From contig NZ_KN214137.1 of NCBI RefSeq assembly GCF_000763055.1, forward strand, positions 151,314-203,303: 51,990 nt of DNA. Direction: 5' to 3'. The position numbers and the translations under genes were made by a program. Below, one piece after another: positions 5,945 to 23,983 of this stretch. The DNA is from Collinsella sp. 4_8_47FAA. Its GTDB lineage: Bacteria > Actinomycetota > Coriobacteriia > Coriobacteriales > Coriobacteriaceae. Under the pieces are notes generated by a model. It worked only from the letters and a program-made list of their open reading frames with translations, did no database searches and was not told the DNA's origin. Position 1 is the stretch's first letter; the number at the start of each line of letters is the position of its first letter.

Positions 5945-6805
5945 TTAATTCTGTGCCGTCCAGACTTCCCCATCTCCAAAGTCGAGCAAGAGCGGAAGAT
6001 GGGTATGTCGATTATCCGGTGACGGTATTTTTTTCCAATCGCCATACATCGTTGTAAGATATTTATCCGTCATACGAGGAACAGGGAATTCACTGCCTTC
6101 GAAAACCGCACTGCTCAGAGGGAAAATCTCTGAAATAGGCACTGGCGCCATATTCGGCCAGCTTAACGTCAGACAGTAATCAGAGACCTCACCCGTATTT
6201 GAGTCGGCAATACAGGAATCGAACAAATCCTGGTAAGAGCATGCGCCTCGAGAAACCAGTTGTTCCACCACGTGCATAGCAGAACAACCAATTTGCTCGA
6301 GTTGACCAAGGAACCCTTTATGAGGGACAACAATGGAAGAAGAATGATATAAATAGGCTCTTTTCTGTGCAATTGATGCAGTTCGGACTTGCTTTGCACG
6401 AAGGCGTTTATCTGTATAGAGCTGGTCATATGGAAAGATGTCGACAAAAATGCCCATCGAACTGGAAGCCTCTCGAGCCTCTTGATTCTCGAAGCGAGTT
6501 CCATCGCGATACACCTTAGCAAACATCGCAGCATAGCCAGTAGTATTCCGCGATGTATGGAGCGAATATCCTTCCGGTAACCCACCCTCGGCTAAAGAGC
6601 AAAAGCGGTCATAATCTGAACGCATCATTCCGATATCTATATCATCATCCCAAGGGATAAACCCCCTATGACGCATTGCTCCTAAACATGTTCCACCGTC
6701 AAGCCACCACCTGATGCCGTGCTTAGAGCAGAATGCGGCGACAACCTGAAGGATATCCAATTCAGTGTTTTGAAGCTTTAATAGCGCGTGAGCTTTAGAC
6801 ATCAT
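5945..6805 (-). CDS. licD: LicD family phosphocholine transferase
   Basis: 286 aa. Residues 34-60 hold the LicD signature WLDGGTCLGAMRHRGFIPWD followed by DDIDIG, a nucleotidyltransferase-like core with the acidic metal-binding cluster. LicD proteins transfer phosphocholine from CDP-choline to a sugar of a cell-surface polymer. Here the activation genes (licC/licA fusion and licB) lie about 7 kb away, supporting that substrate rather than another phospho-alcohol. The start is the ATG at 6805, four nt after the flippase stop; a second ATG follows at once. A longer frame (to 6913) would run through the flippase gene and is rejected. Confidence in the family is high; the acceptor sugar is unknown. 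Confidence 0.88.
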   Translation of the reverse strand: MMSKAHALLKLQNTELDILQVVAAFCSKHGIRWWLDGGTCLGAMRHRGFIPWDDDIDIGMMRSDYDRFCSLAEGGLPEGYSLHTSRNTTGYAAMFAKVYRDGTRFENQEAREASSSMGIFVDIFPYDQLYTDKRLRAKQVRTASIAQKRAYLYHSSSIVVPHKGFLGQLEQIGCSAMHVVEQLVSRGACSYQDLFDSCIADSNTGEVSDYCLTLSWPNMAPVPISEIFPLSSAVFEGSEFPVPRMTDKYLTTMYGDWKKIPSPDNRHTHLPLLLDFGDGEVWTAQN

Positions 6806-6809
6806 CGGC

Positions 6810-8054
6810 CTATCTCTTTTCCCCGAACCATTGTTGCGTCTGTTTCCCCAAAACAGAAGACTGATAAATAAGGCAAATGGCATTGGATATAAGCGCCGAT
6901 ACAGTAGGGCCATTTAAGCCAAACAGCATTTGCGCAGGAGCCATAACAGCGACAGCACTAATTAAGGACAGCATGCTGCCAACAAATACCCCTCGGTAAT
7001 TATCAAGAGAAACCAACAAATCGTTGACAAACCAAGCGATGCCAGTCAAAAAGGCACAAGCCAACATAGGCTGAAGGAGATCGGTATGTTTAGCTATTCC
7101 AGCGCCATAAAACAGTGACAGCAATAATTTACCGAAAAAGAAAAGGGCAACTGAAGATATGACACCGACAAAAAAGATGCCAGCAAGTATTTTACCTATG
7201 AGCGAAAAAAAGGACTTTTCTCTAGAATGGTAACGCTCTACTAGATAACCTAATAAAGGATTATAAATATAGGTCGCACCCATTTGGATAATTGCCACAG
7301 GTGCAGCAACTGATGCATAAATACCCAGAGCAGAATCTCCGTATGAATAAGATAAATACTGCCTGGGAATATTCGGCGCCGCAGAAGCAGCAATGCCGCC
7401 AAGAACGATGGGCAAACAGCTACATAGGAAGGCTCTGACCTTCGCTCGGCTAATTCCAAGCTTGATTGCAGAAATCCGATTTGATCTTGGATAATCGTAA
7501 ATAACTCCGATGCCTATTGTCACTACCGTCATAAGCAACAGTGCACCTTCGAGGCTATTAAAAAATCCAAAGACAAGAATGAATGAAAGGAGAGAGCCGA
7601 TGCCCTGCATTATGAGGGATTTCCCAATATAGTCCATCCTATGACCAACCTGATCATTAGCATGCATGACATCAATGACTAAGCCAGCGGTTTTATAGAG
7701 AGCATACAGAAGAATAGCGGGCACCGTACCAATACGACACGTTGCAATGGAATAGACGGCTAACATTGCAAACGCTATAAAAGTAGTAAAGAAACGAAAA
7801 GTCAGGTATTCACCAGCAGAGTTTTTCCTTTCAATATCTGCAATTTGCACCGTGTACATCCTGTATTGGGCTAATTGAGAAAACATGTTGAAAATAGACA
7901 TAGCCAGCGAATAAATGCCTGCAGCACTATATCCATCAGACAGCCGAACGACCAAAATGGTGATAAGCCACTGACAGCCTAAATTAGTCAACGAACCGAC
8001 GGTATTCCAGAACATATTATGTTTAATCGAAAGAGTCTTCTCTGTGGCCTTCAC
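6810..8054 (-). CDS. Oligosaccharide flippase (Wzx/MATE-like)
   Basis: 414 aa, almost entirely hydrophobic, with about 12-14 predicted helices in the pattern of polysaccharide biosynthesis transporters. The N-terminus WNTVGSLTNLGCQWLITILV and the repeated aromatic/Gly helices match the Wzx group of the MOP superfamily. It should flip the undecaprenyl-linked oligosaccharide built by the neighbouring glycosyltransferases. The best start is a GTG at 8054 with a weak AGAAGGG about 11 nt upstream; an internal ATG at residue 14 is an alternative. The stop lies four nt before licD, so the two are probably cotranscribed. Confidence 0.85.
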   Translation of the reverse strand: MKATEKTLSIKHNMFWNTVGSLTNLGCQWLITILVVRLSDGYSAAGIYSLAMSIFNMFSQLAQYRMYTVQIADIERKNSAGEYLTFRFFTTFIAFAMLAVYSIATCRIGTVPAILLYALYKTAGLVIDVMHANDQVGHRMDYIGKSLIMQGIGSLLSFILVFGFFNSLEGALLLMTVVTIGIGVIYDYPRSNRISAIKLGISRAKVRAFLCSCLPIVLGGIAASAAPNIPRQYLSYSYGDSALGIYASVAAPVAIIQMGATYIYNPLLGYLVERYHSREKSFFSLIGKILAGIFFVGVISSVALFFFGKLLLSLFYGAGIAKHTDLLQPMLACAFLTGIAWFVNDLLVSLDNYRGVFVGSMLSLISAVAVMAPAQMLFGLNGPTVSALISNAICLIYQSSVLGKQTQQWFGEKR

Positions 8055-8098
8055 AAATATAAGCGCCCTTCTAAACCTGTCGAAATGAGGATACGGAG

Positions 8099-9064
8099 CT
8101 ATCTCGCAGCTTTAAGTTCTTTTAAAATCAAAATAAACAGCCAATTCGGCACAAGACGTATAATGATATCTGCTTTAGCGATAGACGGGCAAGCTCGTCG
8201 GTATTTAAGTAAACCAATTATGGAGCGCCGCTCCCTTGCTTCAGCGAACCCCAATATTTCCTTTAGATGCGGTGAATCGGGAAATCTATCGGCAAATCGC
8301 CTAGCAGTATCAACCCTGTTTTTAACTCTTGTCGAATACCAATCATCTTTTGAAGAAACACCTGCAAGGAATCCAGTTTCGTTACCACCATGTCGACGAT
8401 ACTTAACCAAAGGAGTCATAGTAAAGCTGCACTTCCCCAGTTCACTGCAACCCAATGTCAACCACAAGTCATGTGCAGTCGATTCCGGAAAGGGAATCAT
8501 CGACTTCGCCGCACTCGCATCTAACATGAGAGCCATACCAATGCCGTAACATACGCTTGCGGCCTGTACAGTAATATCCTCTCCAGAGCACCAATTTACT
8601 TCCGGCGAATTAGGATGAGCTTTCCTATAACTCTTTACCAGAATATTTCCGTTTTCGTCAATTACCGATCTATCACAAACATCTAGAATTGAGCCTTCTT
8701 CTAGCATATGGTTGAGCGAAACTTCAACTCTATTAGGCTCCCAAATATCATCCTGATCGCAAAGTACTACGTAATCCCCTTCCGCCAAGGAGAGCAGCGC
8801 CTCGAACGATTTGACATAACCGAGATTATTATCACCGTGATAATACCGATAGGCGTTTTTCGTTATATGCGCTTGGATAAACCGCTCTAATGAATCCGAT
8901 TCAGGGCAGTCATTTCTAACTAGAAGCGTAAGCGGAAACGTTTGTTTATCTATCGAATCAAGTTGTTCCGCGAAAAACTTAAGATCGGGTTTATAAGCTG
9001 AGAGAAGTACGCATACGCCAATATCATTTCCCATTTCTATTTCCAAAAATCCTCTCAAATTCAT
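8099..9064 (-). CDS. GT2 glycosyltransferase, rhamnosyltransferase-like
   Basis: 321 aa. It has the GT2 start VCVLLSAYKPDLKFFAEQLD, the nucleotide-binding VRNDCPESD region, NLGYVKSFEALL, and the metal-binding CDQDDIWEP, which is characteristic of the WbbL/RfbF-like rhamnosyltransferase subgroup. HDLWL around residue 200 fits the acceptor/catalytic segment. The ATG at 9064 opens the longest frame, but an ATG at 9034 (residue 11) with GGA nine nt upstream may be the real start. First gene of the minus-strand glycan block, followed by the flippase after 44 nt. Donor sugar not determinable. Confidence 0.83.
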   Translation of the reverse strand: MNLRGFLEIEMGNDIGVCVLLSAYKPDLKFFAEQLDSIDKQTFPLTLLVRNDCPESDSLERFIQAHITKNAYRYYHGDNNLGYVKSFEALLSLAEGDYVVLCDQDDIWEPNRVEVSLNHMLEEGSILDVCDRSVIDENGNILVKSYRKAHPNSPEVNWCSGEDITVQAASVCYGIGMALMLDASAAKSMIPFPESTAHDLWLTLGCSELGKCSFTMTPLVKYRRHGGNETGFLAGVSSKDDWYSTRVKNRVDTARRFADRFPDSPHLKEILGFAEARERRSIIGLLKYRRACPSIAKADIIIRLVPNWLFILILKELKAAR

Positions 9065-9153
9065 TGCTAAAGATTATCAAAGCACCCTCAGTTAAAAGAA
9101 ACTCTTTTAAAAATAGAGTATTTATCCCTGTCTCTTAAAACGAGTGCCTAATA

Positions 9154-11223
9154 TCAATAAGTAACAACCTTCGTTCCATAGGGAATGTTATCGTAAATCC
9201 ATTTTGCATTCTGAATCTCAAGGCGTACGCATCCAGCAGAGGATGGAACGCCCATCGTGGGATCCATCACGCGGTTGCTGTTGACGTAGTAGGGTGAGGA
9301 ATGGAATAAGTAATCACCATAGAACTGCGTGTAGTAATAGCAAGTATATCCATGCCCAAAGGAGTTTCCCTTACCGTAGACCTGATACTCCCCTATCACC
9401 GTAGGCGTGCTAGCTTTTCCCGTCGAACATACATATCGACGGTTTAAGGACCAGTTATTCCAGGATCCAGTGTAAATACTCGTAACGCAACGTGACGTAT
9501 CGACAAGTATCAGCCAATTTGTATTGCTTGAATAACTTTGAGCCTTAGCATCCATATAGTCTGACACCCACGCGCCGTTGGCCATGAAGTAATTCCAGGA
9601 TCCGTCCACAACGCGCCAGCCAGTAGCCATGGCGCCACTAGCGTCGAGCCAATACCAGGTACCCCCCAGGTTAAGCCACCCTGTTTGCATATAACCAGAC
9701 GAATTCAAGTAATACAAAGATCCGTTAACGGCAACCCAGCCGGTTTTCATAACGTAGGTAGATGGGTCCAAATAGAACCAGGAGCCATCCTTGTACAGCC
9801 AGTCAGATCGTGCATAGCCAGCGGTCTCATCAAAGAAGTACCATTTTCCGTTAACGTTCTTCCATCCAGCGTAGGGGGAGCCATCGGTTGGATCAGCATA
9901 GAACTTGCACCCTCCAAGCGTCACAAACCCGTGAGCTTCGGCTAATTCGCCATCACCGTTTGTTGTAAATAGCTTTCCACTACGCAACGCTCCACACAAT
10001 GAGCAATCAGAACCAGCAAAAGCCTTAGACGGCTCATCCTGGACCGAGTCCTGGACATCTACCCATTCACGACAAGCAACAGCGCCTGAAGTTTTTGCAT
10101 AATAGCTTTTCCCATTTACAGAAAAATGACCTAGCAGCATTTTACCGTCGGCGGCAGGATCGAGATAATAGTATTGGCTATTGTCCTTCAGCCATCCCGT
10201 CTTTACAATGCCCGACGCATGAGAAGGCTCAGCGTAATACCAGTCTCCATCGCTCATAAACCAGCCGAGTGACAGCGCTCCCGTTGAAGAAAAATGATAT
10301 TGATTGGATCCGATGACAAAAAAGCCGGTAGCCATTCTATTGTCATTTGCGACATCGAGCCAATACCAAACGCCATTCACCAAACGCCAGCCCGATGCAA
10401 GTGCGCCGGAACCGTCAGCGTAATACCAGTCCGTCCCATCAAACGCCCAACCAACAGCCATTGCGCCTGAATCCGATAAATAGTAACGAGACGAACCGAC
10501 AGAAACGATTCCTCTAGACATAACACCATCATTGGCGGGATCAAGCCAATACCAGTTATTGCCAGTTTGAAGCCAGCCGGTTAAGACTTCACCATTGCTA
10601 CCCCAATACCATAAACCGTTATCAAGGCACCATCCATTAATCAGTCCATAGGTTCCAAGAAGATAAGGGTGCCCATCAATAACACGTCGACCAGTAGCCA
10701 TAGAACAGCTGTTAAGGGAGTCAAACCAGTACCATTGACCTCCAATAAACTGCCAGCCACTTGCCAAAGCGCCTGATGGACCCGCGTAATACCACTTATT
10801 TTCAGTAAAAATCCAACCGCAGCTCATTGCGCCGTCACGAGCGGGGTCTAAGTAGTACAGCGAGTCGTCAATATTCTGCATTCCGGTCAAACGACAGCCA
10901 TCTAGATAGTAATACCAGGACAAACCGTTCCATTGCCATCCAGATAGTTGTTCTGTAGTCGACGGGTCTTGGCTTTCGACAACCTGTAGACTCGAATCTT
11001 CCGTTGTCTTGCCGGCACAATCACTGGAGTCTTGAGAGCAAAAGCCACCGGCAAATGCTCCCAACCTTCCTGTCGAGTCGCGCCCTACGACACCGTTATC
11101 CGCCCCCTCTTCCACGGCATAAGCAGTGCTAGAAAATGCGGGGGCGGAAACTGAAAACAAGGCGGAAAATAGCATCAAGCCAATTACTCGCCAGCAAATT
11201 CGATGATCAATCCGGACATTCAT
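9154..11223 (-). CDS. Choline-binding-repeat protein with C-terminal L,D-transpeptidase (YkuD) domain
   Basis: 689 aa. A signal peptide (residues 1 to about 36, ending STAYA) is followed by a long array of about 20-residue aromatic repeats (W-x-W-x-G-x-W-Y-Y...G-x-M-x-x-G) up to about residue 560. Residues 565-689 form a YkuD-type L,D-transpeptidase: NWLILVDTSRC, then His641 (LFHSSPYY) and catalytic Cys665 in SSAGCVRL. The protein would bind a choline-decorated wall polymer and form 3-3 peptidoglycan crosslinks or attach proteins outside the membrane. It is 42 nt downstream of, and in line with, the NlpC/P60 repeat gene, so an operon is likely. The binding ligand is inferred from repeat type and the lic genes nearby. 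Confidence 0.9.
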   Translation of the reverse strand: MNVRIDHRICWRVIGLMLFSALFSVSAPAFSSTAYAVEEGADNGVVGRDSTGRLGAFAGGFCSQDSSDCAGKTTEDSSLQVVESQDPSTTEQLSGWQWNGLSWYYYLDGCRLTGMQNIDDSLYYLDPARDGAMSCGWIFTENKWYYAGPSGALASGWQFIGGQWYWFDSLNSCSMATGRRVIDGHPYLLGTYGLINGWCLDNGLWYWGSNGEVLTGWLQTGNNWYWLDPANDGVMSRGIVSVGSSRYYLSDSGAMAVGWAFDGTDWYYADGSGALASGWRLVNGVWYWLDVANDNRMATGFFVIGSNQYHFSSTGALSLGWFMSDGDWYYAEPSHASGIVKTGWLKDNSQYYYLDPAADGKMLLGHFSVNGKSYYAKTSGAVACREWVDVQDSVQDEPSKAFAGSDCSLCGALRSGKLFTTNGDGELAEAHGFVTLGGCKFYADPTDGSPYAGWKNVNGKWYFFDETAGYARSDWLYKDGSWFYLDPSTYVMKTGWVAVNGSLYYLNSSGYMQTGWLNLGGTWYWLDASGAMATGWRVVDGSWNYFMANGAWVSDYMDAKAQSYSSNTNWLILVDTSRCVTSIYTGSWNNWSLNRRYVCSTGKASTPTVIGEYQVYGKGNSFGHGYTCYYYTQFYGDYLFHSSPYYVNSNRVMDPTMGVPSSAGCVRLEIQNAKWIYDNIPYGTKVVTY

Positions 11224-11265
11224 TTCAGGCCCCTAACCGGTACCGGCTGTCTTACAGGGAATCAA

Positions 11266-13437
11266 TTAAATAAACGGACGAGCTGCGCCGATTACATTTC
11301 CCCTTGCGCTAATAGGATGAATTCCGACACCCTGATGAGGCCAAGAGTCGATCATCATACCGCCGCCAAGTGCAATTGCGATATGCCCGCGATAATAAAC
11401 AACATCGCCACGTTGAATCGAGCTCGTGCTCACGGGCATAAAGATATTGCTTCGATACCAATTCATGGAATTGTAGGTTTGGCTTGGATCCCAGCGATAG
11501 TTATAAGGGTTGTAAACACCCATATCCATGCCAGTAGCATAAAGGCACTGCAAGACAAAACCAGAGCAATCAACAGCTCCACCGGGAGCGGTAGACCAAG
11601 GCTCAATATATTGCGTACCAATATACTCATAGGCGCGCTGGATAAAGGCGTTCACGCAATCTTCCCGCGTTGCTTCGACAGAAATGCGAGAAGGGGTCAC
11701 ATAGGTAAAGTATCCGGTGCAATAGCTAGGCAGCTGAACAGTCCAAGAACTGACCTGAGGATACTGGGATGGATTTTGCCAGCCAACTTTGTCGCACTGA
11801 CCATCGCTCCAGAAAACTCGACGAACGCCATCGATGGTTCTTGCGCCCGTTGCCATAGCGCCGCTACCGTCTAGCCAATACCACTTACCCGAATCTTTAA
11901 GCCAGCCAACATGCATGCTTCCATTGGACTCAAGGTAATACCATGTTCCATTCAGGCATTTCCAACCAGTTGCCATTTTTCCGTCAGCGTTTAGGTAATA
12001 CCATGCACCGCCAGTAAAAACCCATCCGGTCTTCATCACGCCAGAATCGGCATCAAGCCAATACCAATCGCCGTCAATCTGCAGCCATCCAAGATGAATG
12101 GCACCCGTTCCGGGCTCAGCGTAAAACCTTAGATTTGCGACATTAACCCAGCCGGACGCAACCTGCCAACCATCAGCTCCAGCGGTTTTTAGGATAGTGT
12201 CGTTTTCGCGAATCACATCCTTGCAAAGATATCCATTATCATCAGCGTATCTTTGAACGCCGTCATTAACGGTAACCCAGCTTGAAACCACAAGCCTACC
12301 GCTCTGGTTTGCAAAACAATCGTTGCCGCTCACCTCAAATAAGCCCGTTTTCATGAGATGGCTAACAGGGTCCAAATAATACCAACTCGTGCCATCTTTA
12401 TACCAGTCAGAAATAAGCGCACCAGATTGAGAGGCTTGATACCAGCCGTTCTCGGACTGAGCCCAGCCAACAGCCATAACCCCATTGGGGTTCAAATAAT
12501 ATGCTGCGTTACCAAGGTCTAAATACCCAACGAACATTTTGCCGTCGGAAGCTGGGTCGAGATAATACCAAGCGCCGTTAACGAGTTTCCAGCCAGTAGC
12601 CGCAATACCGTTGGAACAGTAATACCAATCTGCTCCGTCTTTGTACCATCCACTTGCGAGGCCATAGTCACCAAAAATGTAACTGCTTCCATCGATGTCG
12701 TGACGGCCTTTGAACATAGCCAGCGTCTGCGGGTCAAAGTAATAACGAGCTCCGCCTATCGACTGCCATGATGAAGCGAGGGCGCCAGACGAATAGGCCC
12801 AGTACCAATTCCCGTCTAGGAGAATCCAACCGGTTTTCATAGCGCCAGAAGCATCTAAATAGTATTTCCCGCTCCCGAGGTTGACAAAACCAACCTGCAT
12901 AACATGAGAAACAGGATCCAAGTAATACCATGTGCCGTTTTGGTAAAGCCAACCAGCAGCTAAATCGCCTCCAGCATTGGCATAAAACCAATTTCCATCT
13001 GAGTTACGTAGCCAGCAGTTCTGATATAGCGCGCCAAAAGGCGTTGCGGCATTGCCGTCATTCGCATAAAACGAAGCAGTCGATCCGCCAGCATCGGTCA
13101 CATTGAAATAACCTGTCTGCATTGCACCATCATTGGCTGGATCAAGCCAATACCAATAGCCCCCGCTTTGCAGCCAGCCAGTTTGGTGTTTACCGTTTTT
13201 TCCGTAATACCAAACTCCAGACGACTCGTCTCGTTGCCAGCCATCTTTTATGACGGAAGAATTATCAGGTTGCAAATCATCGGAAACCACAGAAGAAAAA
13301 TCCGCTTTTGACTCAATACTCTGAGCCTCAACGGAATCCTGTGCAAACGCGACATTCGCACTCAGGGGCAAGCAGCAAGCAGTGATTAATGACGCAGCAG
13401 CACAAACAAGCGTGGCCTTCTTTTCGAATCGATACAT
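11266..13437 (-). CDS. Choline-binding-repeat protein with C-terminal NlpC/P60 endopeptidase domain
   Basis: 723 aa. Signal peptide (residues 1-32, ending VAFA), a short linker, then tandem aromatic wall-binding repeats to about residue 550. The C-terminal NlpC/P60 domain has catalytic Cys624 in VDCSGFV and His685 in YRGHIAIALGGG. Such enzymes cut the D-gamma-Glu to diamino-acid bond of peptidoglycan stems. The ATG at 13437 has GGGAGGG six nt upstream. It is divergent from the licC-licA fusion, with a 165-bp intergenic region that contains a palindrome (13536-13554), so the two transcripts may share control. Domain calls are firm; choline as ligand is inferred. Confidence 0.9.
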   Translation of the reverse strand: MYRFEKKATLVCAAASLITACCLPLSANVAFAQDSVEAQSIESKADFSSVVSDDLQPDNSSVIKDGWQRDESSGVWYYGKNGKHQTGWLQSGGYWYWLDPANDGAMQTGYFNVTDAGGSTASFYANDGNAATPFGALYQNCWLRNSDGNWFYANAGGDLAAGWLYQNGTWYYLDPVSHVMQVGFVNLGSGKYYLDASGAMKTGWILLDGNWYWAYSSGALASSWQSIGGARYYFDPQTLAMFKGRHDIDGSSYIFGDYGLASGWYKDGADWYYCSNGIAATGWKLVNGAWYYLDPASDGKMFVGYLDLGNAAYYLNPNGVMAVGWAQSENGWYQASQSGALISDWYKDGTSWYYLDPVSHLMKTGLFEVSGNDCFANQSGRLVVSSWVTVNDGVQRYADDNGYLCKDVIRENDTILKTAGADGWQVASGWVNVANLRFYAEPGTGAIHLGWLQIDGDWYWLDADSGVMKTGWVFTGGAWYYLNADGKMATGWKCLNGTWYYLESNGSMHVGWLKDSGKWYWLDGSGAMATGARTIDGVRRVFWSDGQCDKVGWQNPSQYPQVSSWTVQLPSYCTGYFTYVTPSRISVEATREDCVNAFIQRAYEYIGTQYIEPWSTAPGGAVDCSGFVLQCLYATGMDMGVYNPYNYRWDPSQTYNSMNWYRSNIFMPVSTSSIQRGDVVYYRGHIAIALGGGMMIDSWPHQGVGIHPISARGNVIGAARPFI

Positions 13438-13535
13438 AAGCGACCCTCCCAGATATCTCGTTTATTTATTTTAGTCCACATTCCAGGATTGATTTTCGTT
13501 ACCGTCTGTTCAGTCTGTGTAGATAAATTTAATAA

Positions 13536-13565
13536 ATTGAACAAATCGTTCAATCATTCTATTCT
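13536..13565 (+). promoter_or_regulatory. Candidate promoter with overlapping palindromic operator upstream of licC-licA
   Basis: A 7-bp perfect inverted repeat, ATTGAAC-aaatc-GTTCAAT (13536-13554), covers a -35-like TTGAAC (13537-13542). A TATTCT at 13560-13565 follows with a 17-nt spacer. The GTG start of the fusion gene lies 37 nt further on with GGAGG at 13592-13596. Position over the -35 suggests a repressor site. Sequence match is seen; function is inferred. Confidence 0.5.
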
Positions 13566-13602
13566 TTTTCTAAGCAATGAACATCTTAATTGGAGGCCTG
13601 TA

Positions 13603-15377: not shown

Positions 15378-16319
15378 ATGCAATTCGGCTTTTTTAGCGG
15401 TCTTCTTTGGGGCCTTGATACAGTGATTCTTGGAATCGGCTTGGCGCTTGCGCCCTATATTGGATCGGCGGAAGCGCTTGCATGCGCCTCCATTGCGGGA
15501 TCCTTTCTCCATGATGCCTTCTGTGCAATCTGGCTCTTTGGCTACATGGGAGTTAGAGGCAGACTAAAAGACACGCTCGCTGCACTTAAAACTCGTTCGG
15601 GCAAGGTTGTCATCGCCGGCGCTCTACTCGGTGGACCTATCGGAATGACCGGCTACGTATTAGCGATTAATAACATCGGAGCTGCCTACACGGCAATCAT
15701 CTCCGCCTTCTATCCCGCGGTCGGAGCGTTCCTTTCGTTCGTGCTGCTGAAGGAGAAAATGGGCAAAGGTCAGATACTTTCCCTTCTCGTTGCTCTTTGC
15801 GGCGTAATGACGATGGGCTATCTATCGGCCGGATCGAGCGAGATTGCAAATGCCCCCCTCGGCTTACTCGGCGCGGTGCTTGCCGTTATTGGATGGGGAT
15901 CCGAAGCGGTGCTGTGCGCATGGGGAATGAAAGATGATGCCGTTGATGACGAAACGGCTTTGCAAATCCGTGAAACTACGAGTGCGCTTGTTTATGGAGT
16001 ACTCGTACTCCCCCTCTTCGGAGCATGGCATTTCACGCTGGGTGCCATCCCGAGCATGCCCACATTGATTATTGCACTCGCCGGACTCGCAGGAACTGCA
16101 TCCTATCTGTTCTATTACAAGGGCATCGCGGCAATCGGAGCAGCGCGTGCGATGGCTCTGAATATATCCTATTCGGCATGGTCGGTGGTCTTTGGCCTGA
16201 TCTTGCTTGGAACAATTCCCGACGTGGCATCCGTAATCTGCTGCGTTGTAATTGTGTGCGGAACAGTTTTGGCAGCTAGTAACTGGGACGAACTATTTGG
16301 ACGTAATAGGACAGCGTAG
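15378..16319 (+). CDS. licB: LicB-like choline permease (DMT/EamA superfamily)
   Basis: 313 aa with ten predicted membrane helices in two EamA-like halves; the first begins LLWGLDTVILGIGLALAPYI and the second SAWSVVFGLILLGTIPD. The drug/metabolite transporter fold, together with its place two nt downstream of the licC-licA fusion, marks it as the choline uptake protein LicB. It would supply choline for phosphocholine decoration of a surface polymer. A strong bidirectional terminator follows 18 nt after the stop. Other DMT substrates are possible in principle, but operon context makes choline by far the likeliest. Confidence 0.85.
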   Translation: MQFGFFSGLLWGLDTVILGIGLALAPYIGSAEALACASIAGSFLHDAFCAIWLFGYMGVRGRLKDTLAALKTRSGKVVIAGALLGGPIGMTGYVLAINNIGAAYTAIISAFYPAVGAFLSFVLLKEKMGKGQILSLLVALCGVMTMGYLSAGSSEIANAPLGLLGAVLAVIGWGSEAVLCAWGMKDDAVDDETALQIRETTSALVYGVLVLPLFGAWHFTLGAIPSMPTLIIALAGLAGTASYLFYYKGIAAIGAARAMALNISYSAWSVVFGLILLGTIPDVASVICCVVIVCGTVLAASNWDELFGRNRTA

Positions 16320-16337
16320 CTTGATTAACAATGTAGC

Positions 16338-16370: not shown

Positions 16371-16380
16371 AGCATCATGG

Positions 16381-18522
16381 CTATTCAATTACCACGGCCT
16401 GGCTATCCATCTGTTGCCACGTGCCGAAGAACACTTGGGCATTTCGCGTAACATTGCCGTTAATCGAATCCGAAAGATAGACAATTCCCTGCTCGTCATC
16501 ATAGCCTTTAAGGACTACGGCATGATTACCGCCCCACAGACCATAGGAATGCCCGTTATACCAACGCGCAGCATAACGGCCTCCTGGCCAACTTCCCCAT
16601 TCGGTATTCCACATCTCAACAGGTTGACCACAGGTCAGCCTGTTCTTAATGGAAGAAATTGACGAGAAAGAGACGTCTTTTGCCTGCTTGCCACTTCCAG
16701 CAGCACGCAGAAAGTTATTACCAGCAATAGTAATCGCAGGTGCGACGCATCCCATGAGACCCCCGCTGCTACGCCTTGGATTGCCATCAAAAGCGGTAAC
16801 AAAATTGCCATTGCTTCCCTTGGGCAAATAGTAATCCGCAATAATCGTCTTACCTAAACCGAAACCATAGTAGTTAAGCAAGTTTGTAAGGGCAACCGAC
16901 TCACAGCCAGTAGGAAGTTCCGGGTACTGCGAATAGCACGGGACATCGACCCAAGCGCCAACCATTGCGCCGGATGAACTGAACTTGTAGTCAGTAGAGC
17001 CGATCCAATACCAACCGTTGCTCAACATTACTCCCCCACGTGCGGCATCAAGGTAATACCATGTGCCCCCACGGGAAAGCCATCCCGTTTTCATTATGCC
17101 AGAAGCGGAATCTAGCCAGTACCAGTTACCGCCATCGTTAAGCCAGCCGGTCGCCATTCGACCATCCGAGTTAAAGTAATACCAAGACCCAGCTATTTGC
17201 TGCCATCCAGTCAGAATTACCCCATCAGCAGAACAATAATATCGAGCACCCTGACTCTCAATCCAACCAGTTCTGGCATTACCGTCATCGTCAATCAGCT
17301 GGATTCCCGAATCGGTCATGATGCCTTTAAGGTCAATTGCGCCGCCGGATGACGAATGATACATCCAAGCCCCATCACCGTTTGACCAGCAATTAGCCAT
17401 CATCTTGCCGGTACTATTAAATATGTATTCACATGATCCGATAGTTTGAACGCCCGTGGTCATGGCATGCGTCGAGGGATCGAGCCAGTACCACGTACCG
17501 CTTAGGTTGAGCCAGCCGGAGGCGAGGGCGCCGGAGCCAGTCGCGTAGTACCAGGTCCCGCCGTCGAGCACCCATCCGGTCGCCATCGCGCCGGAGGCGC
17601 TGAACCAGTACGCTGAGCCGTTGCACGCGTGGAGGCCCGTCACCATGGCGCCGCCCGCGTCGGGCTCGAGCCAGTACCAGGAACCGCCGGTGTAAAGCCA
17701 GCCGGTCGAGGCGATACCGTCAGCGAACCAGTACCAGGAGCCGTCGACGAAGCCCCAGCCGTTAAGGGGGCCGCAGCTGCCGAAGTAGCGGCGGACGCCC
17801 TGCGCGTCCGTCTGGTAACCCGTCAGCATGGCCCCCGTCCGGGCGTCGAAGCAGTAGGGCACGCCGCCGACGGATACGGGGCCGCGCGCCAGCGCGCCGG
17901 AGCCAGTCGCGTAGTACCAGGTCCCGCCGTCGAGGACCCACCCGGTCGCCATCGCGCCGGACGAATTAAACCAGTACAGGGAGCCGTTGCACTCGTGAAG
18001 GCCGGTAGCCATGGCATGGGTGGAGGGATCAAGCCAGTACCAGGCGCTGCCGACGTAGGCCCAACCGGAGGCGAGGGCGCCGGAGCCCGTCGCGTAGTAC
18101 CAGGTACCGCCGTCGAGGACCCACCCGGTCGCCATCGCGCCGGAGGCGTCAAACCAGTACGCGGAGCCATTGCACTCATGGAGCCCGATGGCCATGGCAT
18201 GCGTCGAGGGGTCGAGCCAATACCAGGCCCCATTGGTATAGAGCCAGCCAGAATGCAACGAGACCGGATTGACTGAATCCACATAGAACCAGTTGCCGTC
18301 AAACGAATTCCAACCCAGATTCCATTTGACGGATTCTTGAGCAGGACCATCATCGATTGAATCGGAAGGAGAAAGAGTCGAGGGGACGGATTGCCGCTCA
18401 AAATCAGTAGGGATGGAGGAGCTTATGGGTTCTGCGTTCGCGATATCAACCACACCGGGTCCAGCGAGCAGTAGAGTTGAAAGAATGATTAGGATTAATG
18501 TTATTTGCTTTTTCCTTGCCAT
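16381..18522 (-). CDS. Choline-binding-repeat protein with C-terminal C39-like cysteine peptidase domain
   Basis: 713 aa. Signal peptide 1-31 (ending ANA), aromatic wall-binding repeats from about 70 to 520, then a peptidase_C39_2-like domain: VPCYSQYPELPTGCES with catalytic Cys540, His667 in GGNHAVVLKGY and Asp685 in LSDSING. C39-like domains cleave peptides; in wall-bound proteins the substrate is often unknown. The start has GGGGG six nt upstream of the ATG at 18522. The middle of the repeat array (about 17490-18010) is much more GC-rich than the rest and nearly identical to part of the adjacent GH25 gene, a sign of recent recombination. Confidence 0.88.
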   Translation of the reverse strand: MARKKQITLILIILSTLLLAGPGVVDIANAEPISSSIPTDFERQSVPSTLSPSDSIDDGPAQESVKWNLGWNSFDGNWFYVDSVNPVSLHSGWLYTNGAWYWLDPSTHAMAIGLHECNGSAYWFDASGAMATGWVLDGGTWYYATGSGALASGWAYVGSAWYWLDPSTHAMATGLHECNGSLYWFNSSGAMATGWVLDGGTWYYATGSGALARGPVSVGGVPYCFDARTGAMLTGYQTDAQGVRRYFGSCGPLNGWGFVDGSWYWFADGIASTGWLYTGGSWYWLEPDAGGAMVTGLHACNGSAYWFSASGAMATGWVLDGGTWYYATGSGALASGWLNLSGTWYWLDPSTHAMTTGVQTIGSCEYIFNSTGKMMANCWSNGDGAWMYHSSSGGAIDLKGIMTDSGIQLIDDDGNARTGWIESQGARYYCSADGVILTGWQQIAGSWYYFNSDGRMATGWLNDGGNWYWLDSASGIMKTGWLSRGGTWYYLDAARGGVMLSNGWYWIGSTDYKFSSSGAMVGAWVDVPCYSQYPELPTGCESVALTNLLNYYGFGLGKTIIADYYLPKGSNGNFVTAFDGNPRRSSGGLMGCVAPAITIAGNNFLRAAGSGKQAKDVSFSSISSIKNRLTCGQPVEMWNTEWGSWPGGRYAARWYNGHSYGLWGGNHAVVLKGYDDEQGIVYLSDSINGNVTRNAQVFFGTWQQMDSQAVVIE
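17490..18010 (-). repeat. High-GC repeat block, copy 1 (in the C39 gene)
   Basis: About 520 bp nearly identical to 18903-19423, offset by 1413 bp. It encodes choline-binding repeats that include the unusual units GGVPYCFDARTGAMLTGY and RRYFGSCGPLNGWG. GC content jumps relative to the flanking repeats of the same gene. Only a handful of residues differ between copies. Confidence 0.85.
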
Positions 18523-18622
18523 GTGCAGCCCCCAGTAGTTACCAATTTTTATATAAACATAGTCTACAAATGGATAGCTAAGAGCAATATGTAATTAGAA
18601 AAAAGCAATTAAGGAAGAGTTG

Positions 18623-20356
18623 CTAGCCGAGCCAAGCGCCATTACTAGCAAAAGAGTATTTCACCCCATCGATTTCTTGAACACCCGTAGTCATAGCGTG
18701 CGTCGAGGGGTCAAGCCAGTACCAGGCGCCGCCGACGTAGGCCCAGCCGGAGGTGAGGGCGCCGGAGCTCGTCGCGTAGTACCATGTGCCGCCGTCGAGG
18801 ACCCATCCGGTCGCCATCGAGCCGGAGCCGTTGAACCAGTACATGGAGCCGTTGCACCCATGGAGCCCGGTGGCCATGGCGTGCGTCGAGGGATCGAGCC
18901 AGTACCACGTACCGTTTAAGTTGAGCCAGCCGGAGGCGAGGGCGCCGGAGCCCGTCGCGTAGTACCAGGTGCCGCCGTCGAGCACCCAGCCGGTCGCCAT
19001 GGCGCCGGAGGCGTTGAACCAGTACGCTGCGCCGTTGCACGCGTGGAGGCCCGTCGCCATGGCGCCGCCCGCGTCGGGCTCGAGCCAGTACCAGGAGCCG
19101 CCGGTGTAAAGCCAGCCGGTCGAGGCGATACCGTCAGCGAACCAGTACCAGGAGCCGTCGACGAGGCCCCAGCCGTTAAGGGGGCCGCAGTTGCCGAAGT
19201 AGCGGCGGACGCCCTGCGCGTCCGCCTGGTAGCCCGTCAGCATGGCCCCCGTCCGGGCGTCGAAGCAGTAGGGCACGCCGCCGACGGATACGGGGCCGCG
19301 CGCCAGCGCGCCGGAGCCCGTCGCGTAGTACCAGGTCCCGCCGTCGAGGACCCATCCGGTCGCCATCGCGCCGGAGGAGTTGAACCAGTACAGGGAGCCG
19401 TTGCACTCGTGGAGCCCGGTGGCCATTACACCGCCCGCGTCGGGGTCGAGCCAATACCAGGCTCCGCCCTGGCGCAACCATCCGGTATACGCTTTGCCGT
19501 CAGAGGTTGCGTAATACCAAGTGCCCTCTTTTAACTGCCAGTAATAAAGAGAGACATCAACATACGCGTAATTCATATCAACGTTTCCGCTAATACCAGA
19601 AACTTTTCCGCGGCTTGTATACTGCCAAAAGCTGTAACTGCCGGTATAGTGACATTGGGAGTTGTATTGAGCAATCCAATGATCCCAAGAACCGCTCTTA
19701 AATACAGGGTCGGTCAATATATTGTTAAACCAATTTAGGTTTGCATAAATGCCTGGCTTATATCCAGCACTAGAAATCTTATTACAGAATGTCTGAGCTC
19801 TAGATGCAATTCCGGATTGACGACCATCTGCAATAATTGTCTTGTCCTCAAGATCGTAATACACCGGTAGCCTAGGATTGTGCCCCGATAGGCAGTCAAT
19901 CACCATGGACGCCTCATCGGCTGCCTGTTGATTATCAAAAGCATATGAATAGATATAGACGCCGTAAGGAATTCCGAGTCGCTCGCACTCAGAAATATTT
20001 CGATTAAATTGATAGTCAACTCGACCGCCCCAAGATGGAGCGCCAAATCCAACACGCAGAATAGCGAAATCGATACCAGAAGCCTTAACAGCATTCCAGT
20101 CAATACGTCCTTGATGCTCACTGACATCGATGCCCTGCGCCGTAGCCCCATCGGGAAGAATGTCCATGGACAATAAGGCTATTCCATCTTCTTCGGAAGA
20201 AGCATCCTCTGCGACCAATTGTCCATCCTCATAACGCCAGGAATTCTCAACTAGGGACCGCGCAGCTTCCGCGTTCGAAGGAAAAACAAACACAGAAATG
20301 GGCGCAAGGACCATCAGCACCAACAATGCCGAAAATAACTTAAGATGTTTGCTCAT
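18623..20356 (-). CDS. GH25 lysozyme with C-terminal choline-binding repeats
   Basis: 577 aa. Signal peptide 1-31, a 40-residue linker, then a glycoside hydrolase 25 domain (about 74-270): GIDVSEHQGRIDW with Asp77, the acidic pair in VYYDLED (Asp168, Glu170), and WQYTSRGKVSGISGNVDMN. Aromatic repeats fill the C-terminal half. It should cleave the MurNAc-GlcNAc bond of peptidoglycan, like pneumococcal or phage Cpl-1-type lysozymes. Among the five enzymatic repeat proteins here, this is the only one with the catalytic domain first. The ATG at 20356 has GAGG five nt upstream. About half of the repeat region is the GC-rich block shared with the neighbouring C39 gene. Confidence 0.92.
   Translation of the reverse strand: MSKHLKLFSALLVLMVLAPISVFVFPSNAEAARSLVENSWRYEDGQLVAEDASSEEDGIALLSMDILPDGATAQGIDVSEHQGRIDWNAVKASGIDFAILRVGFGAPSWGGRVDYQFNRNISECERLGIPYGVYIYSYAFDNQQAADEASMVIDCLSGHNPRLPVYYDLEDKTIIADGRQSGIASRAQTFCNKISSAGYKPGIYANLNWFNNILTDPVFKSGSWDHWIAQYNSQCHYTGSYSFWQYTSRGKVSGISGNVDMNYAYVDVSLYYWQLKEGTWYYATSDGKAYTGWLRQGGAWYWLDPDAGGVMATGLHECNGSLYWFNSSGAMATGWVLDGGTWYYATGSGALARGPVSVGGVPYCFDARTGAMLTGYQADAQGVRRYFGNCGPLNGWGLVDGSWYWFADGIASTGWLYTGGSWYWLEPDAGGAMATGLHACNGAAYWFNASGAMATGWVLDGGTWYYATGSGALASGWLNLNGTWYWLDPSTHAMATGLHGCNGSMYWFNGSGSMATGWVLDGGTWYYATSSGALTSGWAYVGGAWYWLDPSTHAMTTGVQEIDGVKYSFASNGAWLG
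18903..19423 (-). repeat. High-GC repeat block, copy 2 (in the GH25 gene)
   Basis: Partner of 17490-18010. The same order of repeat units is kept in frame in a different protein, so the block was exchanged as a multi-repeat cassette rather than by single-repeat expansion. The boundaries are read by eye and approximate. Confidence 0.85.
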
Positions 20357-20618
20357 GTAAACCTCGTCATTCGTTCTTGTTTGCGTCTAGCTTACAGCAT
20401 GGCTGTGAAAGATTCCCGAACATCCAACTGGACAAGGCGCCATCTAGGACGACAAATAACTGCACGCAATACCACAATGTAAACAAGAACTTCCCAGCAG
20501 GGTGAAACCAAGGACTCCTGGTCCCTACTCTTTGCCCAAAGAATGCCGACATCAGTTAGCTTTCAAACCAGATGTCAAAAAGGCAGGGGGCCCAGAGAGT
20601 CCCCTACAACTCGGAATT

Positions 20619-22646
20619 CTAACGAATCAATATTACTTTCGATGGACCCAAAGCAGTCAAACCAGAAATACGGTTTCCATAACCGTCACTATGCCAAAAC
20701 AAGTTTTCGCTCGGCGAATTGCCCCAGAAAAAGCCAATGTGGCTATCGTCCGCATATGGGTTGTAAGGATTGAAGAACACAATGTCCCCCTTACGAGCCA
20801 AACCGCTACGTAACAACTCATCAATAGAGTTGAAATAAGTCACGTTTGCGCACGTATCGATAGCGTAGCCGTACCAACGATAAGCGTTAACGCAGCCGCC
20901 CCTTCCGGGACCACCACTCCAAGGGGAATGGCTCTGCTCGGCGGCAATTGGAGCTAAATCCCCGCCTGCTTTCATATATGCATGCGATACAAATCCGCCG
21001 CAGTTCATACCGGTATACCCGTCCCAACGAGGATCACCCTTTGGATGCATGCATGATTCTTGGCTAAGATGCGTATCATAGCGTGTTCCACGGTAATAGC
21101 CATCGTTCTCGTGGCTCATAAGCCAATTGACCAGGCTGGACCTATTAACCCCTAAAACAGAACCAGACGTATTCAACCATGCACCACTTGCATTGAAGTA
21201 ATAGTCAACGCCATCGATTTTCAGCCACCCGTTAGCAAACATGGCGCCCGAAGGCTGGAGCCAGTACCACGTACCGCCGTCATTAAGCCATCCAGTTTTC
21301 ATCTTGAATGTGGAAGGATCCATCCAATACCACGCGCCGTTGACATATTGCCAACCAGACTTAAGGACACCATTGGAAGATGTGTAGTACCAAGTGTTGT
21401 CGCTTTCGTCAGAAGCGTCATTCGACATAATCCAACCAGATGCCACATTAACGACACCGTTTGCGTCCGCATAGAAAACCGAGTCTCCAATATGAATTGT
21501 ACCTGGCAATGAAGACAAGTCGGCACGATCAGCGATTACGGGAGATCCATCAGATGAAGTAGGCAACGGCTCGCTCAGTGCTCCAGACGAATTCGCCCAT
21601 GAAATACCGTCGCTCAAGTTGATCCAGCACGAAGATGCCATCGCACCGGAATCATAAGAATAATAGCGCGTGTCGCCTACCGTATATTCACCAGTACGCA
21701 TTGCGCCGGATACATCATCAAGGTAATACCAGGCGCTTCCGGACTTTATCCATCGCCCTCGTTGAATTGCTCCGTTTGATGCGGCGTAGTACCAAGTATC
21801 ATCAGCAAGTGCCCAGCCTGTTGCCATGGCACCTGAACTCGTAAGGAAATAGGAGGATGTACCCACTTGCACAAAGCCCGTGAGCATAATATGGCTTCCT
21901 GGATCCAGGTAATACCAAGAATTCCCTAGAAGTAACCAGCCTCCATGCAGCAAGCCGTTGGAGTCAGCGTAATACCAGTTGTTGTCAATAAGCGCCCACT
22001 GGGAGGAGAGCATGGCCCCCGAACTGTTAAAGATATAAGAGGTGCCATTACATTCTTTCAGCCCGGTGGCCATAGAACCATCTGCAGGATCAAGCCAGTA
22101 CCAACGACCCCCATCCGAGAGCCAGCCCTTTACCAGAGCGCCAGAGCCGGAGAAATAACGCCAAGCAGAAGTGGAGCCCGTAGAATCTAGGTACCAGCCG
22201 ACACGCATTGCACCCGAAGAGGAGAATCCATAAGTCGCACCCCCGACTTGGACCAATCCATCCTGAGCCATTCGACCTTCGTCGTCGAACCAGTACCAGC
22301 TACCGTTTATATGTCTCCAAGAGGAAACAGCGATCGTTCCGTCGGACAAGCCCCAACGCCAAAAACCAGCCCCTTCTTCGGGTGATATCCACCCCTGATG
22401 CCAAACAATTTGATTCGAAACCTCAGAAGGGGTCTCATTATCCACCTGAGAGTTCTGCTCGACAGCGAAGGTCGAATCGCGCTGAGCATCAATGGCTGAC
22501 TCAACAGAAGCAATAGCAACGTTAGATGCGGAACCTTCGTCAGTGTTATTCGAATCAAGGGCGTATAACATCGAGGGCGAACTCAAAAGGAGCCCCAAAG
22601 AAACAAGGCCGGAAAAGACCAGCACCCCGAATGAGCATTTCTTCAT
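20619..22646 (-). CDS. Choline-binding-repeat protein with C-terminal NlpC/P60-like domain
   Basis: 675 aa. The signal peptide MKKCSFGVLVFSGLVSLGLL to YALD argues for the ATG at 22646 rather than the GTG at 22667. Aromatic repeats occupy about residues 60-485. The C-terminal 180 residues contain GMNCGGFVSHAY with a probable nucleophile Cys549, DSHIGFFWG with His636 and a further His652 (FWHSDG), the order found in NlpC/P60-type papain-fold peptidases. This head is clearly different from that of the 11266-13437 protein (little shared sequence outside the motifs). It probably cuts a peptidoglycan peptide or amide bond; the precise bond is unknown. Confidence 0.8.
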   Translation of the reverse strand: MKKCSFGVLVFSGLVSLGLLLSSPSMLYALDSNNTDEGSASNVAIASVESAIDAQRDSTFAVEQNSQVDNETPSEVSNQIVWHQGWISPEEGAGFWRWGLSDGTIAVSSWRHINGSWYWFDDEGRMAQDGLVQVGGATYGFSSSGAMRVGWYLDSTGSTSAWRYFSGSGALVKGWLSDGGRWYWLDPADGSMATGLKECNGTSYIFNSSGAMLSSQWALIDNNWYYADSNGLLHGGWLLLGNSWYYLDPGSHIMLTGFVQVGTSSYFLTSSGAMATGWALADDTWYYAASNGAIQRGRWIKSGSAWYYLDDVSGAMRTGEYTVGDTRYYSYDSGAMASSCWINLSDGISWANSSGALSEPLPTSSDGSPVIADRADLSSLPGTIHIGDSVFYADANGVVNVASGWIMSNDASDESDNTWYYTSSNGVLKSGWQYVNGAWYWMDPSTFKMKTGWLNDGGTWYWLQPSGAMFANGWLKIDGVDYYFNASGAWLNTSGSVLGVNRSSLVNWLMSHENDGYYRGTRYDTHLSQESCMHPKGDPRWDGYTGMNCGGFVSHAYMKAGGDLAPIAAEQSHSPWSGGPGRGGCVNAYRWYGYAIDTCANVTYFNSIDELLRSGLARKGDIVFFNPYNPYADDSHIGFFWGNSPSENLFWHSDGYGNRISGLTALGPSKVILIR

Positions 22647-22726
22647 AGCAGCACGGTATCCAATCACGCAGCGACCCCGTCACCTCAGGGCAACGGGGTC
22701 TCAATCAAAACTAACTCAGTAATGTG

Positions 22727-23983
22727 CTAGCCAATTTGCTGGCAGTTTTTGCACTCTCGTGAAGCACCACGCCTCTGGGCCTCCTGAATAGAGATCCGCG
22801 AATAGCCCTTTGCGTCCTTACCAACGGTACGGCACTTATGCGTATGGTAAACATTGCTACCGTTCTTATACCAAACTAGGCCGTAGCCCGGAATCCACTT
22901 ACCGTCCTCGCCGACATAATAGGAGCCGATCCAGGCATTAGTAGCCATGGCACCGGAAGACTGGAGGTAGTAGTCGCCGACCCAGGAGTCGTGGGCCATA
23001 GCGCCGGAACCGCTAAAGTAGTACCAGGCGCCGCCGATCTGACGCCAGCCGGTGGCCATCACGCCGGAATCGTCGAACCAGTACCAAACTCCACCAACGT
23101 TGGCCCAAGAGTTAGAGGCCATAGCGCCCGAACCTCCGAGCCAATACCACGTGCCGCCATTGCTGAGCCAGCCGGTTACCATGGCGCCCGAACCACTCGC
23201 ATAGTACCAAGAGCCACCTGCCAAGAACCAGCCGGTAGCCATCGCGCCGGAATCGCCGAACCAGTACCAGGAGCCGCCCAGGCTGCGCCAGCCGTTAGCA
23301 ACCATGGCGCCCGAGCCATCGAGGTAGAACCACGTACCGCCGATATTGAGCCAGCCAGTGACCATCGCACCGGAAGCGTTGGCGTAGTACCACGTCCCCG
23401 AAACGTTGATCCAGCCGGTCAGCATGACACCATACTCGTCGAAAAAATACCAAGTTCCACCGATATTATGCCAACCGGTCAGCAGTTCGCCACTGAAGGT
23501 CGCATAGAACCACTTTCCATAGATGGAGTCATAGAGCCAGCCGCTATGCTGCATGCGGCCATCGGCGTTGGCACCAGGGGTGTTCAGGAAGTAGTTCTTG
23601 CCGTCAATCTGAACTCGGCCGTATGCCATATCATGGCTTTCGGGGTAAAAGTAATACTTGTCCCCACCGATAGACTGCCAGCCCGACACCGCGATCCCGT
23701 CAGCGCCAAAATAGTACCAGACAGCTTCGTATTCGTTATGCCACTGGTTCGTGACCATGGCGCCAGTTTCGGGATCGAAATAGCGAAGGTTGCCGTCCTC
23801 GCACCGAACGAGTCCAGTCTTCGGACGACCGTCGGAACACCATTCCGTAATCGGTCCACCGTCTCCGCCACCGCCAGCAATATCAGCAAATGAGGGCACC
23901 GGGGCAACCGTCATGCAGGCAGCGGCAAATGCAACAACTCCCAGCACTGTTAGTCCGCGCCATCTTTCTCGAAGGTTTTTCAT
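22727..23983 (-). CDS. Choline-binding-repeat protein without enzyme domain, Cys/His C-terminus
   Basis: 418 aa. Signal peptide 1-33 (ending SFA), a glycine-rich linker, then wall-binding repeats to about residue 370. No catalytic domain is visible. The last 40 residues have His380, His382, Cys384 and, after a helix-like stretch (SIQEAQRRG), Cys411-x2-Cys414. This arrangement resembles the small putative metal-binding tail seen on some secreted nucleases and wall proteins (YHxxxC...I...A...G..xC..C). It could be an adhesin or a regulator of the other wall enzymes; that is a guess. The ATG at 23983 has AAAGGAT five nt upstream. Codons are more GC-rich than in the older repeat genes. Confidence 0.8.
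   Translation of the reverse strand: MKNLRERWRGLTVLGVVAFAAACMTVAPVPSFADIAGGGGDGGPITEWCSDGRPKTGLVRCEDGNLRYFDPETGAMVTNQWHNEYEAVWYYFGADGIAVSGWQSIGGDKYYFYPESHDMAYGRVQIDGKNYFLNTPGANADGRMQHSGWLYDSIYGKWFYATFSGELLTGWHNIGGTWYFFDEYGVMLTGWINVSGTWYYANASGAMVTGWLNIGGTWFYLDGSGAMVANGWRSLGGSWYWFGDSGAMATGWFLAGGSWYYASGSGAMVTGWLSNGGTWYWLGGSGAMASNSWANVGGVWYWFDDSGVMATGWRQIGGAWYYFSGSGAMAHDSWVGDYYLQSSGAMATNAWIGSYYVGEDGKWIPGYGLVWYKNGSNVYHTHKCRTVGKDAKGYSRISIQEAQRRGASRECKNCQQIG

Follow-up and report, generated by a model that had tools for sequence, protein, structure and literature searches.

The described systems closest to the locus analysed here are the Lic-1 locus and choline-binding proteins of Streptococcus pneumoniae, the lic genes of other actinobacteria and, by analogy, NadR of enteric bacteria, in which a helix-turn-helix (HTH) repressor, a nucleotidylyltransferase and a kinase form one chain that acts in a salvage pathway and has its operator at promoters. 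Airway and oral bacteria account for most known cases of phosphocholine display (species table of PMC10434233). Among actinobacteria, Actinomyces gerencseriae and A. viscosus are already known to have lic genes (PMC10434233), and Atopobium rimae and Olsenella uli to have clusters of the LicC/LicA type (PMC6697681). The present locus lies in a 51,990-nucleotide stretch of Collinsella sp. 4_8_47FAA (bases 151314-203303 of contig C4, in a genome of 2.28 Mb), hereafter the window, and combines predicted genes for choline uptake, activation and transfer to a glycan with six choline-type repeat proteins.

The pathway and the predicted docking proteins very probably make up a complete, self-contained phosphocholine surface system. 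In the literature covered, with most subscription papers outside that coverage, there was no report of this Collinsella locus, its docked repeat proteins or its allelic block, of a regulatory role of the LicC/LicA fusion or of the operator. New here is an inverted repeat before the fusion gene that is common to relatives from two phyla.

A predicted phosphocholine pathway with docked wall proteins

A preliminary description had named a licD gene, a LicC/LicA fusion, a LicB-like permease, six secreted repeat proteins, glycosyltransferases and a flippase, and had proposed that they form a phosphocholine surface glycan with docked wall enzymes. Every one of these genes was recovered in place by open reading frame (ORF), Pfam and PDB searches, with E-values that exclude chance (Table 1), and an N-terminal winged helix (HTH_24) was added to the fusion. 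The repeat proteins matched PF19127 or PF01473 at E 5e-32 to 2e-57 and have signal-peptide-like N-termini as judged by eye. All 30 PF01473 matches of the genome, and its only PF04991 match, the licD product, fall inside the locus (genome-wide profile searches, threshold E 0.001). The interpretation of the locus as a phosphocholine glycan system is well supported at the genomic level.

In the proposed mechanism, LicB would import choline, the LicA part of the fusion would phosphorylate it and the LicC part would then make cytidine diphosphate (CDP)-choline. LicD would move phosphocholine onto a lipid-linked glycan made by the neighbouring glycosyltransferases, a Wzx-type flippase would export the phosphocholine-bearing glycan, and the six secreted wall enzymes or proteins would dock on it through their choline-binding repeats. 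Probable targets of the fusion's winged helix are the two putative operator copies in the divergent promoter region between the fusion gene and the gene for repeat protein 2, and binding there would tune the pathway, and in this locus one docked protein as well, to the choline available.

For the flippase there was no usable Pfam match (E 0.54) and PDB sequence searches were likewise empty; its predicted structure aligns to WzxE, which assigns it a MOP/Wzx fold on the basis of the model. The genome has one LytR-CpsA-Psr-type protein, on another contig. The proposed transfer step has two points against it, in that the NCBIfam model nearest to LicD (Mf1) gives a score of 52.5 where its cut-off is 225, and that LicD-type enzymes transfer several different phospho-groups.

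Relatives and predicted substrate of the fusion enzyme

The wider family of the fusion (LicCA) was represented by 80 named loci, and a midpoint-rooted tree was built from 79 sequences and the window (L176 was omitted as too short). The window's clade had 49 members, 47 from Actinomycetota and two without an assigned group, one of these being the window, and included Actinomyces gerencseriae, Schaalia, Gardnerella vaginalis, Atopobium, Slackia and Olsenella. The second clade had 31 members, 17 from Bacillota, 13 from Actinomycetota and one other. LicB-like neighbours were present at 42/49 loci of the window's clade and at 4/31 of the second (L176 was counted in the first set and the window left uncounted). 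In A. gerencseriae DSM 6844 the fusion (55% identity), LicB (57%) and LicD (29%) occur together, and PMC10434233 lists this species among those that the anti-phosphocholine antibody TEPC-15 recognises.

The LicC part of the window's fusion matched the S. pneumoniae cytidine triphosphate (CTP):phosphocholine cytidylyltransferase 1JYK (E 8e-39) and the LicA part the choline kinase 4R77 (E 1e-24) in PDB sequence searches, and the sole significant PDB match of the permease was S. pneumoniae LicB (7B0K/7PAF, E 4.6e-33, residues 3-298 of 313). For LicA, 11 pocket or catalytic residues are named in PMC4364537; in the 4R77 alignment eight of these were identical (T29, D176, N181, D194, E196, Y197, W251 and W254), and Y268 was replaced by Trp. 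Less favourable to a choline substrate are the replacements of E213 by Cys and V178 by Phe, of the further contacts Q31 by Leu and N32 by Ser and, in the LicC part, of D105 by Ser and D192 by Glu (LicC positions from PMC6697681).

The LicC replacements bear on an alternative in which the substrate of the cytidylyltransferase is not phosphocholine but a different small amine, either 2-aminoethylphosphonate or phosphoethanolamine. The two positions discriminate LicC from the phosphonate enzyme PntC and give a mixed picture, with Glu at D192 as in PntC and Ser at D105 in place of the Glu of PntC (PMC6697681). LicC-like phosphonate enzymes are also known in Atopobium and Olsenella (PMC6697681), and LicB-like neighbours are rare in the second clade. 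Set against this, they are frequent in the window's clade and the fused kinase retains the aromatic choline pocket. Moreover, the genome had no match to the phosphoenolpyruvate (PEP) mutase family (PF13714, 0 matches, with 11/14 control genomes positive), which argues against phosphonate as the main rival substrate and leaves phosphonate activation unsupported. The phosphoethanolamine version is compatible with these counter-points. Overall, activation of a different amine was considered quite unlikely.

In another alternative, CDP-choline would feed phosphatidylcholine synthesis via a CDP-alcohol transferase and not a surface glycan. Treponema denticola uses a LicCA fusion for this purpose, and the Collinsella genome holds two CDP-alcohol phosphotransferase genes. 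However, both lie >110 kb from the window on its contig, whereas LicD, the flippase and glycosyltransferases adjoin licCA, and the repeats track licCA across genomes. A role in phosphatidylcholine synthesis is very unlikely on these grounds, and phosphocholine for a surface glycan is the preferred predicted product.

Co-occurrence of licCA and repeat proteins in Coriobacteriia

A check set beforehand was whether lic genes and repeat proteins occur together across Coriobacteriia, and they did so among 296 genomes from 120 genera (LicCA threshold E 1e-10; the use of the same genomes by both searches was deduced from identical settings and handles). PF19127 was present in 89/296 genomes and 40/120 genera, and LicCA in 117/296 genomes and 54/120 genera. 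Both were found in 66 genomes, repeats only in 23, LicCA only in 51 and neither in 156 (Fisher p 2e-15, uncorrected for kinship), a tally in which G085 counts as LicCA-positive although its match covers the kinase half only. LicCA was present in 42/46 genomes with at least ten repeat matches and in 33/33 with at least 15, repeat counts being lower bounds from 22 candidates scored per genome.

The association has its exceptions, which weaken the case for a coupled system. PF19127 was missing from 51/117 LicCA genomes, which suggests that docking is optional, and LicCA from 23/89 repeat genomes. Within the genus, G204 has LicCA but no LicD match or LicB neighbour in the stretch seen.

Among 41 genomes of the genus, 12 had a LicCA match, and exclusion of G085 (kinase half, 29%) left 11 with a full-length gene. 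These include G135, the match of which is listed with one stop yet has an open frame of 592 residues. At least 20 repeat matches were found in 7/11 genus genomes with full-length LicCA versus 0/30 others; the seven were the window's genome, five genomes 99% identical to it at LicCA and G129 at 70%. A repeat-protein fragment beside LicB at a contig edge in G220 was overlooked by the match count.

Linkage was assessed at the 30 best LicCA loci, picked by LicCA score alone; the window and its near copies account for six of them. Within 1.5 kb, 29 of the loci had a LicB-like gene (26-30% identity in five cases) and 16 had a choline-type repeat protein. Most of the 20 regions from other genera were chosen for LicCA near repeats and illustrate layout only.

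Subtype of the choline-binding-type repeats

In the published consensus, the choline is framed by two Trp residues of a single hairpin, one belonging to GW and the other to WYY (PMC5137146, PMC4929436). By consensus scoring, both Trp were present in 62/65 hairpins of the window repeats, and the share of two-Trp hairpins at 15 other LicCA-positive loci was 0.88 to 1.00. Within the genus, the first choline-site Trp was found in 163/174 hairpins of three LicCA-positive genomes versus 3/47 in three controls with PF19127 repeats but no full-length LicCA (G085 0/15, G019 2/18 and G037 1/14). Subtype was examined in 7/23 LicCA-negative repeat genomes plus G085; G110, in the genus, and G266, outside it, offered too few hairpins per protein for scoring. 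Because the PF19127 repeats of LicCA-negative Collinsella belong to a different subtype, the presence of repeats by itself was rejected as a sign of choline binding.

It is conceivable that the repeats bind carbohydrate in the manner of glucan-binding or clostridial toxin repeats, that the lic genes serve an unrelated phospho-glycan and that the neighbourhood is simply a cell-envelope gene pool. Several observations favour this and count against docking to phosphocholine: PF01473 also covers glucan-binding and toxin repeats (PMC4929436), protein 6 scores best in the PDB against clostridial toxin repeats, and three of the repeat genomes without LicCA, all outside the genus, retain the first Trp (G182 3/3, G184 3/4 and G190 4/4 hairpins). 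Nevertheless, CbpF, CbpJ and LytA were matched by protein 6 as well, below the toxin repeats; two-Trp hairpins track LicCA within the genus; and LicCA is present in every genome rich in repeats and linked to the repeat genes. Carbohydrate binding is unlikely in this light, and docking of the six proteins to choline remains the favoured prediction.

The repeat proteins of the lic-negative Collinsella G019 and G037 (L058, L059) lack the first Trp, and two have an esterase-like tail as judged by eye. They appear to be an unexplored wall-binding repeat subtype.

An exchangeable block at a fixed glycan site

In G091, which is without LicCA, the left flank (90-97% identity over window -9778 to -1334) and the right flank (93.5% over 25731-32626) are both kept, and the approximately 25 kb between them gave no blastn match of at least 300 bases to the compared stretch of the window's contig. 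The right flank is also retained in G284 and, together with part of the left flank (-7626 to -3963), in G141. G121 shares the fusion (99%), LicB (100%) and proteins 2-6 (89-96%) with the window, whereas its LicD and flippase are only 27 and 23% identical, and its 60 kb held no ORF best-matching the group 1 glycosyltransferase, the flippase-adjacent family 2 glycosyltransferase or protein 1. This comparison indicates that the choline genes and most docked proteins stay and the predicted acceptor genes change. By these comparisons the block is one exchangeable allele at a fixed glycan site.

In G121, G099 and G116 (L042, L045 and L053) an extra 615-residue repeat protein, 37-38% like protein 5, lies left of the block; the window's genome had no PF01473 match at this position.

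A conserved inverted repeat before the fusion gene

Two equally spaced copies of TGTTCA-N25-TGAACA, one with CGTTCA for TGTTCA, precede the fusion gene, which has a GTG start with GGAGG shortly 5' of it. Regions upstream of its relatives were scanned for inverted repeats in which GTTC and GAAC are separated by 26-28 bases (L101, L146 and L176 were omitted as a window near copy or cut gene, and the starts of L117 and L131 were shifted by 60 bases). Such a repeat was found in 34/47 regions of the window's clade and 24/31 of the second clade, versus 0.06 and 0.04 in shuffles that kept base composition in 20-base blocks but not dinucleotides. The 27-base spacing was by far the commonest (24 and 15 regions, respectively), and 58/80 strict sites fell within 1.8% of bases, at the fusion-gene start (80 loci, 1.43 Mb). 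Only five such sites occur in the whole genome, two of them in the window's promoter region; a reversed-pattern control gave four.

Between half-site starts there are 31 bases, about three helical turns, a distance that would suit two recognition helices lying on the same face. The site lies between the starts of the fusion gene and of protein 2, so that repression of both would be the simplest reading. A regulon over all docked proteins was ruled out, as the repeat preceded 9/74 repeat-protein ORFs (22 locus stretches, several being near copies and L049 and L101 apparently the same contig), all nine divergent from licCA. A pattern scan found no inverted repeat upstream of window proteins 3-6; a match at 23582 is intragenic and has another spacing.

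The repeat could alternatively be the operator of a separate regulator, with the fused winged helix doing something else. Pointing in this direction, and away from binding by the fusion, an intact HTH occurs without the repeat in homologues including L161, L162, L155, L109, L172 and L148 and further in L118, L112, L123, L191 and L200, while an eroded HTH occurs with the repeat kept in L140, L144, L145, L141, L175 and L187. A promoter scan gave no sigma-70-like promoter at 13300-13700. Conversely, the repeat precedes the fusion gene in two phyla, is missing before 5/5 HTH-less homologues (500 bases searched upstream, in a control set of five only) and precedes the first licCA where two flank licB (L107, L108, L116 and L134). 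The HTH score was also higher with the repeat than without (median 88 versus 50, p 1.6e-4, relatedness uncorrected). L186 was dropped from this comparison for want of a usable frame, and its 69/97 count is somewhat inflated by apparent duplicates (L140/L194, L144/L195 and L141/L196 look like the same genes twice), by L187 lying in the L116 operon and by the intragenic site of L192. A separate regulator is considered somewhat unlikely.

We consider it probable that HTH-LicC-LicA, in Actinomycetota as well as in Bacillota (Streptococcus oralis among them), is a choline-sensing transcription factor in addition to a two-step enzyme. It would bind TGTTCA-N25-TGAACA at its own promoter and set phosphocholine display by choline supply, as the choline counterpart of NadR, and in Collinsella it would also set at least one docked wall enzyme.

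Several relatives merit separate record. Two Gardnerella vaginalis loci (L133 and L135) have the fusion, a LicB relative (42-45%), LicD (26-27%) and an inverted repeat of the TGTTCA-N25-TGAACA type. Four loci from Streptococcus oralis and other Streptococcus (L170, L171, L177 and L178) have the HTH-LicC-LicA fusion and the same type of repeat, with no LicB-like neighbour within the fetched stretch. The paired fusion genes that flank licB in four loci differ from each other, and may serve two substrates or include one copy kept mainly as regulator. Finally, MT836088, MT839846 and three other unannotated human-faecal records labelled Bacteriophage sp. carry LicCA-like genes (about 27-39% identity) and may be host DNA.

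Locus layout and neighbouring features

The features are listed in Table 1. The DUF2142 protein may, as a guess, have a polymerase-like role. The AlphaFold2 model of the C-terminal part of protein 5 had a predicted local distance difference test (pLDDT) value of 36.

Table 1. Features of the locus from left to right, in window positions; hairpin counts give those with both choline-site Trp (TM, template modelling score)
Feature	Position	Strand	Evidence and remarks
DUF2304 protein	1268-1621		PF10066; paired with the next gene
Family 2 glycosyltransferase	1621-2367	-	PF00535
DUF2142 membrane protein	2677-4668	-	PF09913, E 3e-34
Group 1 (family 4 type) glycosyltransferase	4766-5914	-	PF00534, E 7e-32
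LicD-family phosphotransferase	5945-6805	-	PF04991, E 5e-45
Flippase, predicted MOP/Wzx fold	6810-8054	-	AlphaFold2, pLDDT 90; WzxE 9G9N, TM 0.80
Family 2 glycosyltransferase	8099-9064	-	PF00535, E 1e-12
Repeat protein 1, YkuD L,D-transpeptidase domain	9154-11223	-	PF19127, PF03734; 11/11 hairpins
Repeat protein 2, NlpC/P60 domain	11266-13437	-	PF01473, PF00877; 12/13 hairpins; divergent from fusion gene
Putative operator copy 1, TGTTCA-N25-TGAACA type inverted repeat	13507-13543	.	Pattern scan; conserved before homologous genes
Putative operator copy 2, equal spacing	13548-13583	.	Pattern scan; between divergent starts 13437 and 13603
HTH-LicC-LicA fusion	13603-15375	+	Winged helix (HTH_24, about 13624-13752); CTP:phosphocholine cytidylyltransferase (1JYK); choline kinase (4R77)
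LicB choline permease (EamA/DMT family)	15378-16319	+	7B0K/7PAF; directly 3' of fusion gene
Repeat protein 3, C39-like peptidase domain	16381-18522	-	PF19127, PF13529; 12/13 hairpins
Repeat protein 4, GH25 muramidase domain	18623-20356	-	PF19127, PF01183; 9/9 hairpins
Repeat protein 5, C-terminal NlpC/P60-like domain below cut-off	20619-22667	-	PF19127; PF00877, E 0.0014; 8/9 hairpins
Repeat protein 6, repeats and short Cys/His tail	22727-23983	-	PF19127, E 1e-55; 10/10 hairpins
Conserved right flank of allelic site, five glycosyltransferase genes	25731-32641	-	

Beyond the range of the preliminary description lie a DUF4869 protein with an ATPase-like partner (24278-25734) and a second glycosyltransferase block (25731-33920). 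A diverged DUF4869/ATPase pair lies left of the window in L041, and such pairs recur near the glycan loci of relatives. An insertion element bounded by TGTTAGCGCC terminal repeats, which we take to be IS21-like, reaches into the window at positions 1-461; it continues leftward from there and contains 600 N on the window's contig. G099 has a copy at a different nearby position.

At the fusion gene, the window and Collinsella aerofaciens 1001136B_160425_H1 (L101) share 99% identity, and the tree joins both, which places the window organism in the group of C. aerofaciens, a common human gut species.

Significance and comparison with known systems

If the proposed system is correct, gut Collinsella would be a further source of ligand for C-reactive protein, the platelet-activating factor (PAF) receptor and anti-phosphocholine antibodies; with the block being one allele of the glycan site, this ligand would vary from one close relative to another. 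Constant docking genes together with exchanged LicD and glycan genes suggest a means of altering the surface sugar while the docked wall proteins are retained. Whether the fusion enzyme doubles as a choline-responsive regulator can be tested directly through the conserved repeat.

Among actinobacteria, A. gerencseriae DSM 6844 shares the same fusion and LicB with Collinsella; the excerpts of PMC10434233 and PMC6697681 contain no mention of choline-binding repeat proteins, a regulatory winged helix, an operator or an allelic block. The Collinsella LicC part belongs to the same LicC-like nucleotidyltransferase family as PntC (PMC6697681), and differs in having a fused choline kinase and an adjoining LicB in a genome without a PEP mutase family match.

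Relative to S. pneumoniae, the same four activities are predicted by homology (LicA, LicB, LicC and LicD), both organisms have choline-type repeat proteins that include wall hydrolases, and the flippase is in the same superfamily as TacF (PMC13385700). In Collinsella, however, LicC and LicA are fused with a winged helix, there is one LicD instead of two, and no tarI/tarJ-like gene was noticed among the neighbours scanned. The PF01473 matches are, moreover, gathered in one locus, and the block is an exchangeable allele in an actinobacterium. By its testable features, the Collinsella locus reads as a variant of the pneumococcal Lic and choline-binding system.

The resemblance of the fusion to NadR is one of analogy. 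An N-terminal DNA-binding domain, a nucleotidylyltransferase and a kinase follow in the same order in one chain, predicted to act in a salvage pathway, and an operator-like repeat stands at the fusion gene's own promoter. The fusion differs from NadR in its predicted substrate, choline, in its operator and presumably in ancestry, and on this analogy we infer a self-regulating choline enzyme.

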